64,000 nt of DNA from Roseburia hominis. GTDB taxonomy: Bacteria; Bacillota; Clostridia; Lachnospirales; Lachnospiraceae. Shown here in pieces: positions 31,741 to 34,139 of this stretch. Under the pieces are notes generated by a model that did not search any database, had not been told where the DNA came from, and was given only the letters and a program-made list of their open reading frames with translations. Both the position numbers and the translations under genes were made by a program. Positions within the stretch are counted from its first letter, which is position 1. Each line of letters opens with the position of its first letter. Location: NCBI GenBank assembly GCA_040702975.1, contig CP159990.1, forward strand, positions 620,001 to 684,000, in the 5' to 3' direction.

Positions 31741-31845
31741 TACGCCGGCGGGGTACGGACGGTGTACCAGGAATTTCCGCATGAACCGGGACGCTTTTTC
31801 AAGGTTCCAGACGCCTTTCAAAACAACAGAACAGGAAATGGATAT

Positions 31846-32310
31846 ATGACACAGGATGTATTATTGACGATTTCCGGCCTTCACACGATGGAGGCTATGG
31901 GAGACGGGGAAGAAAGTAACGAGCCGATCGAAGTGATCACGCCGGCAAGTTACTATTGGAAAAACGGGAAACATTTCATTCTGTTTGATGAATTAGTGGA
32001 AGGGATTCCCGGAGTGACGAAAAATAAAATAAAAATTACAGGTGACACCGCTCTTGAGATCATGAAGAGCGGTATTACCAATGCACATATGGTATTTGAG
32101 AAGAATAAAAGCAACCTTACTTTTTATGATACTCCCTTCGGACAGATTGAAGTGGGGATTCACACGCGGGATATGTGCGTAGATGTGAGGGAGGACCGGA
32201 TTGACGTGAATGTGGAGTATGGTCTGGACGTCAATCATGAGGCCACGGCGGACTGCCACATTATTATGAATATCCGACCAAAGCATGCTGCGGAGAGCGT
32301 TTTGAGTTGA
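31846..32310 (+). CDS. DUF1934 family beta-barrel protein
   Basis: A 154-residue protein of the YwiB/DUF1934 group, predicted calycin-like beta barrel. Landmarks are ISGLHTMEAMGDGEESNEPIEVITPASYYWKNGKHFILFDE, then KITGDTALEIMKSG and a closing NVEYGLDVNHEATADCHIIMNIRP. Start ATG 31846 is chosen because AGGAAATGG precedes it and the earlier in-frame ATG 31762 would add residues atypical of the family. It lies 105 nt after pfkA. Function unknown. Confidence 0.8.
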   Translation: MTQDVLLTISGLHTMEAMGDGEESNEPIEVITPASYYWKNGKHFILFDELVEGIPGVTKNKIKITGDTALEIMKSGITNAHMVFEKNKSNLTFYDTPFGQIEVGIHTRDMCVDVREDRIDVNVEYGLDVNHEATADCHIIMNIRPKHAAESVLS

Positions 32311-32402: not shown

Positions 32403-32443
32403 AAAAATCCACTGTACTTTTTCACGGGTACAGTGGATTTTTA
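32403..32443 (-). terminator. Terminator of the tandem-repeat RNA
   Basis: AAAATCCACTGTAC and GTACAGTGGATTTT form a 14-bp stem. On the minus strand it ends in TTTTTT and stops the repeat-containing transcript; it may also end the DUF1934 transcript from the other side. Confidence 0.85.
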
Positions 32444-32950
32444 AAATATTCCATCCATTGGGTTATCCTCCTTTATTCTTCTTATCTATCTGAAACTATT
32501 ATCTCAAATAGTGTTTTTTCTGATGAAAGATTATCTTCTCATTGGTTCTTACCTCTTTCTGTCAGATTTTTAAAGGTTAGAATTCACCATACATTGGTTT
32601 TTACCTCTTTCTGTTAGATTTCTTTTTGATCTGGAAATTCATCGTCCATTGGTTCTTACCTCTTCTTGTCAGATTTCTTTTTGATTTAGAAATTCATCAT
32701 CCATTGGTCTTTACCTCTCTTTGCCAGATTTCTTTTTGATCTAGAAATTCACGTCCATTGGTCTTTACCTCTTTCTGTCAGATTCCTTTTTTGATTTAGA
32801 AATTCACATCCATTGGTCTTTACCTCTTTTTGCTAGATTTCTTTTTGGATTAAGAATTATCTTCTCATTGGTCCTTACCTCTTTCATTAGATTTGTTTTC
32901 CGGTTTTAAGATTAAGTTTTCGGTGGTCCGTCCTCCTTTTCTTTTGTTGT
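32403..32950 (-). ncRNA. Tandem-repeat RNA with nine ribosome-site-like units
   Basis: Read on the minus strand, this unit starts just after a consensus promoter and ends in a terminator. It holds about nine units of 52-55 nt. The core of most units is AGAGGTAAAGACCAATGG: a Shine-Dalgarno-like AGAGGT (GGAGGA in the first and last) that can fold as GGU-NNNN-ACC, then ATG 8-9 bases on. The ATGs open micro-ORFs of 3-11 codons (MRR, MDVNF twice, MDDEFLNQKEI, MDDEFPDQKEI, MYGEF, MRR, MDGIF). Between units AUUUCU...AGAAAU forms small stems. I know no matching RNA class. A protein- or ribosome-binding RNA is an inference. Confidence 0.7.
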
Positions 32951-32954
32951 TCTT

Positions 32955-32983
32955 ATAATATCTCATAAAAGAGTAAATGTCAA
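32955..32983 (-). promoter_or_regulatory. Consensus promoter of the tandem-repeat RNA
   Basis: Minus strand: TTGACA (32983-32978), 17-nt spacer, TATTAT (32960-32955). It lies just upstream of the first repeat unit and points away from the rpn gene. Confidence 0.85.
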
Positions 32984-33202
32984 TGGAAAAACAGAAAAAA
33001 ATATAAAAAAATTAAAAATAACTGATAATTATATGAAATATAAAAAATTAACGCACAAGAATGACGGCGATAATTAAATAAAATCGTATTGGAACTACTA
33101 TATATAAAAGAAAGAAGTTTTATGAAAATAACGAGGTAAACTAGAACTGTTTTTATACAGCAAAATTAGTGAGTTTGTAATGCATAAGGAGAAAAAGTAT
33201 AT

Positions 33203-34139
33203 ATGGGGAAAAATGATATTTTGATGAAGAAATGGATATCGGATAAGGAACGCTTTGCAGATTTGTTTAATGGAGGATTATTTGGCGGGAAGCAAGTGAT
33301 CGACCCGGAAGGGTTAGAAAATGAGGAGATTCATCAGGAGTTGTTGATTCCAGACCAAGAAAAACATGTGGTCCCAATACGCAGATATCATGATGTAGTT
33401 ATGAAATCTCGGCAGAATCTCAGGTTATTGGTATTAGCTTGTGAAAATCAGCAGAAAGTGCATTATGGTATGGCAGTACGGGGAATGTTATATGATGCTT
33501 TGAGTTATACCGAGCAGATTAGAAGATTGACATTAAAAAATCGCAAAGAGAAAAAATTGACAAATTCTGCGGAATTTTTGTCAGGGATTGCGAAAGAGGA
33601 TAAAATCCTTCCAGTGCTTACAGTCGTTTTCTATTATGGGGATGAGGGAAAGTGGGATGCTAGCAAGGATTTATATGGAATGATGGAGTGGGGGGGACGA
33701 TGAAGAAATTTTAAAACCATATATCTCGAATTATCAGATTAACTTGATTGATGCAGGAAAGGTGAAAAAACCTGAGAATTTTAAAAGTGATTTACAGTAT
33801 ATTTTGGGCATGTTACAATATAAAAAAGATAAAAGTATGTTGCGGAAATATATTCAGGAACACAAAGATTTTTTCTCGGGATTGCCTGAGGATACTTATG
33901 AGGTTGTGCGAGTAATGTTGAAATCGGAGTGGAGACTGGAAGAACCAGTTCAGGATAAACAGACGGGAGGTATTAATATGTGTAAGGCATTGGAGGATTT
34001 ATATAATGATGGCGTTGACGAAGGGCGTAGAAATATACTTTTGGAGTTACTTAAAGAAGGGTGGATTACATTGCAGACTGCAGCAGAAAAATTAGGAGTT
34101 ACGGAGGAAGAATTGAAGGGCAGTCTGGCCAAGGAATAA
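33203..34139 (+). pseudogene. Rpn-family (PD-(D/E)XK) nuclease gene, frameshifted
   Basis: The first 166 codons give an Rpn-type start: KWISDKERFADLFNGGLFGGKQVIDPEGL, then VPIRRYHDVVMKS. Frame breaks at a run of seven G (33690-33696). With six G the reading continues WGDDEEILKPYISNYQINLIDAGK into a second open frame to 34139, giving one protein of about 311 residues. Rpn proteins are recombination-promoting nucleases; some act in phage defence as toxins controlled by a short C-terminal protein from an internal start. The broken frame may be decay, a sequencing error or a slippage switch. Low GC relative to its neighbours suggests transfer. Confidence 0.8.
33978..34139 (+). CDS. Possible internal-start C-terminal Rpn protein (RpnS-like)
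   Basis: Inside the rpn frame, GGGAGG (33965-33970) stands 7 bases before ATG 33978, an excellent ribosome site in mid-gene. From there a 53-residue protein reads MCKALEDLYNDGVDEGRRNILLELL and continues into a helix-turn-helix-like end (TLQTAAEKLGVTEEELK). Short Rpn C-terminal proteins of this kind have been reported as intragenic antitoxins. It is downstream of the frameshift, so it could be made even if the nuclease is not. Confidence 0.5.
   Translation: MCKALEDLYNDGVDEGRRNILLELLKEGWITLQTAAEKLGVTEEELKGSLAKE

Follow-up and report, generated by a model that had tools for sequence, protein, structure and literature searches.

What could an RNA do that consists for the most part of ribosome-binding sites? 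The question is raised by a locus of Roseburia hominis (contig CP159990.1) lying within the window, by which we mean the whole stretch of 64,000 nucleotides that was analysed. The original prediction described here a self-contained transcription unit with a consensus promoter, nine ribosome-site-like repeats and a terminator on the minus strand, and we indeed found all of these parts: the unit extends on the minus strand from 32983 to 32404 and comprises a sigma-70-type promoter, nine Shine-Dalgarno (SD) units spanning 32938 to 32441 and an intrinsic terminator, promoter and terminator being its own (Table 1). The gene directly downstream of the terminator encodes a convergent PF09148 protein (31762-32310, plus strand), so the array stands as an independent unit.

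Table 1 Parts of the array and their positions in the window.
Feature	Position	Strand	Remark
A+T-rich stretch 5' of the -35 box (UP-element-like)	32984..33025	-	sequence
Promoter TTGACA-N17-TATTAT	32955..32983	-	TTGACA 32983-32978, 17-nt spacer, TATTAT 32960-32955
Unit 1, start-less ribosome-binding site AAGGAGGACGGACCACC	32912..32938	-	near the predicted 5' end
Unit 2, SD + ATG, MRR*	32857..32882	-	
Unit 3, SD + ATG, MDVNF*	32796..32827	-	
Unit 4, SD + ATG, MDVNF*	32741..32772	-	
Unit 5, SD + ATG, MDDEFLNQKEI*	32669..32718	-	
Unit 6, SD + ATG, MDDEFPDQKEI*	32614..32663	-	
Unit 7, SD + ATG, MYGEF*	32577..32608	-	
Unit 8, SD + ATG, MRR*	32531..32556	-	
Small A+U hairpin ACUAUU..AAUAGU	32495..32514	-	seen by eye
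Unit 9, terminal micro-ORF: AAGGAGG, ATG at 32458, MDGIF*	32441..32473	-	
Intrinsic terminator, 14-bp arms, then T run	32404..32441	-	

The tandem period of 52-55 nt reported earlier holds for eight units but not for the ninth, which follows 84 nt on. Unit 2 lies 54 nt from unit 1 (AGG to AGG), and the ATGs of units 2-9 are spaced by 55, 55, 54, 55, 55, 52 and 84 nt; thus, the first eight units form a tandem array and the ninth is set apart, following a small A+U hairpin, which was also seen by eye in the related loci L010, L011, L034 and L041. Tandem Repeats Finder, run with a threshold of 50, gave the array scores of 398 (period 55) and 465 (period 110), and whole units resemble each other with 81-83% matches. 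The locus does not have the form of a CRISPR array: the repeats are whole related units, and no cas gene is among the six neighbouring genes scanned. As described before, AGAGGT occurs in units 2-8 and GGAGGA in the outer units 1 and 9, and no single protein is encoded. An ATG 8-9 nt behind the SD, opening an ORF of 3-11 codons, is present in eight of the nine units; unit 1, about 10-15 nt from the predicted 5' end (with the start site assumed 7 nt past the -10 box), has no ATG. At the other end, the micro-ORF MDGIF* (32458-32441) has a stop codon that overlaps the first base of the terminator stem. The predicted fold of the whole RNA is somewhat better than that of shuffles (z -2.29, with 1 of 100 shuffles equally good), and in our judgement much of this score is due to the terminator. 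The closest relatives of the window's array keep the hairpin sequence (L034, L041) and the terminator stem AAAATCC-CTGTA... (also L042).

Plus-strand genes flank the array, encoding DNA polymerase III alpha, phosphofructokinase and PF09148 domains on one side, and on the other an AraC-type regulator and two ORFs without a family above cut-off. Two adjacent plus-strand ORFs in different frames, 33203-33703 and 33744-34139, have no Pfam match above cut-off; they look like fragments of one Rpn-type transposase/nuclease. In this genome, the unit pattern and the unit model found the array itself and elsewhere weak places only: 16 of the 27 pattern matches were such places, each with 2 mismatches, versus 19 for the reversed control, and the model gave one further match at E 2.4.

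Searches of Lachnospiraceae genomes with unit models revealed homologous arrays in relatives. A DNA search of 41 genomes matched six besides this one, with the whole array at 68% identity in two genomes of the same genus (L010, L011) and short matches in four others, of which three (L012, L013 and L014) hold units and one (L015) does not. R1, a model built from 19 units (nine ATG units and ten others), matched 44 of 299 genomes of the family. Scanning GTDB genomes with the exact 17-base start-less core yielded at least 120 stretches; the isolates among the matches listed include Anaerobutyricum hallii, Roseburia inulinivorans, Blautia schinkii, Faecalicatena contorta and Claveliimonas bilis, and most titles listed are Lachnospiraceae or genera that we take to belong there, while six among the at least 120 stretches come from other phyla and look like chance. 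R2, a sequence-only model from 88 start-less units, matched 91 of 200 sampled Lachnospiraceae genomes, of which 15, by hand count, had matches at more than one separate place; the RNA is therefore either dispensable or diverged beyond the R2 model in the other 109. In an order-wide sample R2 matched 36 of 295 genomes, 34 of them in the family and two marginally outside it (E 7e-4 and 1e-3), and in a phylum-wide sample 3 of 299, all Lachnospiraceae.

The supposition that this RNA belongs to an undescribed class was upheld. Rfam 15 at gathering cut-off gave no match in the window or in 16 related loci, and permissive scans of the window array and 20 related loci placed only unlikely models on the RNA (E 0.035 to 5; animal or plant small RNAs, snoRNAs and others), which we took as chance. 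No description of the class appeared among the matches listed in searches of the open-access full text of PubMed Central, and the portion available to us of a survey of candidate structured RNAs of human microbiomes held nothing of this kind (PMC8040213). Taken together, an RNA gene spread through one largely gut-dwelling family, the Lachnospiraceae, seems to have been missed so far. A viral origin was rejected on finding 0 exact core matches in viral contigs, a weak test in that the window's own units are without that core. At L027:1707-1873, a Clostridiales-1 RNA (RF01699, 124.7 bits) adjoins an RNA gene of this class.

For comparison across loci, 80 core-scan stretches (L054-L133, among the at least 120) were analysed first, and the other 40 (L134-L173) were held out. 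The 102 parsed loci, called the first set below, comprise 76 from the core scan, 25 found by model and the window, with some species present twice from two collections. Three stretches were dropped as apparent chance matches within coding sequence (L084, L096, L105), L132 for a flank identical to that of L078 and L036 for having no core; L023 and L042 were not parsed automatically, stand outside the counts and were inspected by eye.

The signature unit is a linear motif, AAGGAGGUACGGACCACC, in which an SD is followed by CCR at the expected start-codon position (consensus AAUYUAAGnAAAGGAGGUACGGACCACCRRAAACnUAARUU). Invariance within the core is inflated because 76 loci were found by that exact core; the part kept in model-found units or in units beside the core is AGGUAYRR(A/U)CCA. 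The original prediction had seen a GGU-NNNN-ACC core whose stem is kept while its loop varies, and had read this as selected RNA structure. The core is literally present in units 2-8 but absent from units 1 and 9, and the structural reading did not hold: across 88 related units, covariation of the inner stem was never seen. RNAalifold gave three invariant pairs with a covariation of zero, the two hypothesised stems did not differ from shuffled columns in pairing (69.9% vs 69.8%) or covariation (0.086 vs 0.087), the outer A+U stem paired no better than shuffled columns in the 88 units, and mutual information revealed no recognisable stem. With no covariation beyond shuffled columns, the argument from kept stem and varying loop fails. 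Moreover, terminal units of relatives often read GGUACAGUCC, which is incompatible with the GGU-NNNN-ACC hairpin.

Among 187 units, 116 have CCN at the start position, 60 have ATG, TTG or GTG and 11 something else, the CCN excess coming largely from the seed units (CCN in 98 of 102 loci). The best unit is also CCN in 23 of the 25 parsed model-found loci, so the start-less unit is not merely a seed effect. In the 79 further units beside the seeds, window excluded, the picture is mixed, with a start codon in 51, CCN in 18 and another sequence in 10; the RNA is thus not simply an array of dead sites. Rather, the typical RNA combines a start-less anchor with a terminal unit that bears a start codon, separated by a variable number of further units, and the window, with one start-less and eight start-bearing units, fits this form. 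Of the seven core units in the sister locus L010, ATG is present in the final two only, so internal units may have a start codon in one locus and lack it in another. Read in the frame set by the start position, 103 of the 116 start-less units run into a stop codon within 24 nt (versus 37 and 75 in the other frames), and in 84 units this stop is at one fixed offset. Since the 32 exceptions include single-base frame shifts (L122, L125, L109), we tentatively read this stop as part of the motif; the same shifts disfavour start-less units as hidden ORFs.

The start-less units also pair strongly with the 16S tail of this genome. The 88 units gave a median duplex energy of -17.9 kcal/mol, versus -10.4 for 51 ORF starts of the window and -7.4 kcal/mol for random 24-mers, a gap biased toward pairing in that an exact core containing the SD served to find most of the 88 and in that the ORF starts are first ATGs, some surely wrong. 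Within the window, unit 1 reached -16.2 kcal/mol with its own 16S tail, units 2-8 -9.3 to -13.7 and unit 9 -12.0 kcal/mol, so that units 2-9 pair only as ordinary genes do.

The micro-ORFs of the original prediction fared differently by position: those of internal units vary as described above, but the terminal one is clearly kept as an ORF. Its first in-frame stop fell within -4 to +7 of the terminator stem in 44 of the 45 non-redundant testable loci of the first set, against 0 and 3 in the other frames and 8.2 in shuffles; in the single failure, L131, the terminator seems to be misassigned. The same script placed the stop at the stem in 16 of 16 testable held-out loci, one of which repeats a first-set locus, against 0 and 0 in the other frames and 2.7 in shuffles. 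These tests omitted 56 of the 102 loci (51 with no confident terminator and 5 with no SD plus start), leaving 46, or 45 after removal of one duplicate, and 24 of the 40 held-out stretches (21 and 3, respectively). Of the five without SD plus start, L028 has MDTEV* by eye and the other four seem terminator-misassigned. The terminal ORFs are 5-10 codons long; in the first set they start with ATG (31), TTG (13) or GTG (1), and their second residue is Asp in 28 of 44. Synonymous codon differences, counted over 16 distinct sequences among 18 five-codon ORFs, amounted to 74 of 357 in frame versus 14 of 292 and 29 of 308 in shifted frames. Beyond an acidic residue close to the start, conservation of the micro-peptides is poor.

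The remaining anatomy of the gene is likewise recognisable across loci. Within 500 nt upstream, 100 of 102 loci have a promoter that matches 10 or more of the 12 consensus bases, versus 4.4% of 551 control stretches, and 58 of 102 have a perfect one, versus 0.4%; the 38 nt upstream of the -35 box have a median A+T of 0.89, versus 0.53 in control stretches. In the held-out set, 36 of 40 reached 10 of 12, three of the four below it being Nocardioides, Streptomyces and Bacteroidales records that appear to be chance hits of the core; perfect promoters were less frequent in this set (8/40 vs 58/102). RNA length ranges from an estimated ~135 nt in L042 to ~1000 nt, and the number of sites from two in L042 to about ten in L064 (by-eye count); by eye, L042 is the minimal form, with one start-less site and the terminal micro-ORF. 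No gene family is common to most loci, the commonest neighbour family occurring in 14 of 102. In 33 of 102 loci, including L069, L097 and L026, the stretch scanned around the core contains a hairpin with a covarying stem and the invariant loop GACGAGAAA / GACGAGAAAG, in which we recognised no known family and which is not in the window's RNA. By eye, this GACGAGAAAG hairpin seems to form the terminator loop in L125 and L094. Another recurring stretch, ACAGACGCGAGCUGU, able to form a hairpin, lies near units in L032, L063 and L012.

Among the functions offered by the original prediction, engagement of ribosomes through the anti-SD survives best. We tentatively propose, with rather less than even confidence, that this is a stand-alone Lachnospiraceae RNA acting by ribosome engagement, which captures 30S subunits and titrates or senses them. 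Each unit presents an SD and a conserved spacer (ACRG-WCCA). A 30S subunit could bind the signature unit but, for lack of a start codon, not begin translation there; start codons with very short ORFs may be present in additional units, and in the final unit, so far without exception, a 5-10-codon ORF stops at the foot of the terminator stem. An SD that lacks a start codon and lies close to a 5' end, called STAB-SD, is able to pair with the 3' end of 16S rRNA, and the bound 30S subunit then blocks RNase J1 (PMC4113751; see also PMC3997798). Docked 30S subunits might similarly shield the present RNA from 5'-to-3' decay, letting it accumulate when free 30S subunits are plentiful, and its sites, dead or occupied in futile micro-ORFs, would in turn titrate 30S subunits or initiation capacity. 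Judged from its sequence, the RNA is probably strongly transcribed, and a near-consensus promoter combined with several sites would put a load on free 30S subunits if the RNA is abundant; we infer its abundance, 30S binding, protection, and titration or sensing. SD pairing alone leaves unexplained why the spacer ACRGWCCA and ACCACC are conserved, a hint of a possible further partner, either a protein or a second rRNA contact. Taken one step further, the RNA could be a housekeeping regulatory RNA for ribosome availability, the first example of its kind, in which start-less and micro-ORF-bearing sites hold 30S subunits, productive initiation is tied to the terminator through the terminal micro-ORF, and the resulting balance determines the RNA level and, via titration, the translation capacity of Lachnospiraceae; this fuller version we consider possible but doubtful.

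The unaccounted-for conservation is what a protein sponge would predict, in which AGGAGGUACRGWCCA(CC) would bind an RNA-binding translation repressor that the RNA titrates, in the manner of CsrB but with another protein. The spacer and ACCACC are conserved beyond the needs of SD pairing (inflated where the core was the search seed), and the several copies per RNA, the near-consensus promoter and the stand-alone gene with changing neighbours all fit. CsrA (PF02599), the candidate put forward in the original prediction, was not found in this genome (G000) or in the same-genus G005. It is above cut-off in 100 of 200 sampled Lachnospiraceae genomes, in 38 of the 91 with the RNA versus 62 of the 109 lacking it (53 have the RNA only and 47 neither; odds ratio 0.54, p 0.047, uncorrected for kinship). 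With no gene in this genome and no co-occurrence across the 200, CsrA is not the partner here; Hfq (PF17209), found in 0 of the 200, was rejected likewise. A regulon sharing the unit's site was also rejected, as 10 places outside the array of this genome versus 6 for the reversed control are no excess that stands out, and few genes of related loci (16 of 367) have CC directly preceding their start codon. The sponge further leaves the terminal ORF unexplained, and we regard it as rather unlikely. Small RNAs with an anti-SD seed could be sponged instead, as the units mimic a ribosome-binding site with a specific spacer, and any such pairing would be Hfq-independent given the Hfq count; yet matches to the unit or its complement outside the array do not exceed the reversed control, and the unit model finds nothing of note there, leaving this reading improbable.

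The terminal ORF, the best-tested feature, carries more weight if the start-less SD only stabilises the RNA, as STAB-SD does, and the payload lies in the micro-peptides, in their translation or in clade-specific elements such as the GACGAGAAAG hairpin. Unit 1 is near the predicted 5' end, where STAB-SD acts (PMC4113751), start-bearing units are common beside the seeds (51 of 79), and the hairpin with its invariant loop covaries in the 33 loci noted above. Nevertheless, the minimal RNA of L042 has no further element and the micro-peptides are poorly conserved beyond their acidic residue, and we hold this explanation to be unlikely. The abutment of stop codon and terminator could also mark a cis-acting leader or attenuator, in which translation up to the stem-base stop hinders the terminator and transcription enters the next gene. 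The downstream neighbour is indeed on the same strand in 34 of 47 loci, but downstream genes vary by locus and the window's next gene is convergent; an attenuator is very improbable. Ribosome engagement thus remains our preferred, if tentative, reading.

Clostridium phytofermentans, which we take to belong to the same family, Lachnospiraceae, offers a lead. A transcription-start study reports a strong unexplained non-coding transcript downstream of cphy2658 in this species (PMC5171806). Compared by description only, this transcript is only a lead to a further member of the class. The units show no conserved secondary structure, the signal that many RNA-discovery methods use. If the RNA engages 30S subunits, it would represent a new kind of translation control; should the unit instead be bound by a protein, this would reveal a global RNA-binding regulator in a family where Hfq was not found and CsrA is missing in about half of the sampled genomes. 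In either case, the class is a concrete testbed for 5-codon ORFs set against terminators.

How does this RNA compare with known systems? Leader-peptide attenuators share the micro-ORF adjoining a terminator, but here the ORF closes a stand-alone RNA at its 3' end and no constant gene lies downstream. Type III toxin-antitoxin RNAs (ToxI/CptI) resemble it in having a promoter, repeats of tens of bases and a terminator; in contrast, the three annotatable neighbours in the window and the AraC-type gene are not such a toxin, no neighbour family occurs in more than 14 of 102 loci, and the window's next gene is the convergent PF09148 gene. With the CsrB/RsmZ sponge RNAs it has in common a stand-alone RNA, repeated short sites and possible titration. 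Unlike them, it occurs in a genome where the CsrA gene was not found, contains a conserved ORF, and has neither a conserved GGA in a hairpin loop nor covarying unit hairpins, units 7 and 8 being without GGA. The closest studied behaviour is that of STAB-SD, the SD-like 5' stabilisers of Gram-positive bacteria, for instance in the Bacillus thuringiensis cry3A leader. In relatives the start-less units, and here unit 1, are likewise SD-like, without a start codon and near a (predicted) 5' end, and they are complementary to the 16S 3' end, as the duplex of unit 1 with its own 16S tail illustrates. Unlike STAB-SD, which this RNA otherwise resembles, no large gene follows here and a conserved spacer extends beyond the SD, and the RNA is stand-alone, consists mostly of several such sites, and has a promoter, a terminator and a terminal micro-ORF of its own.
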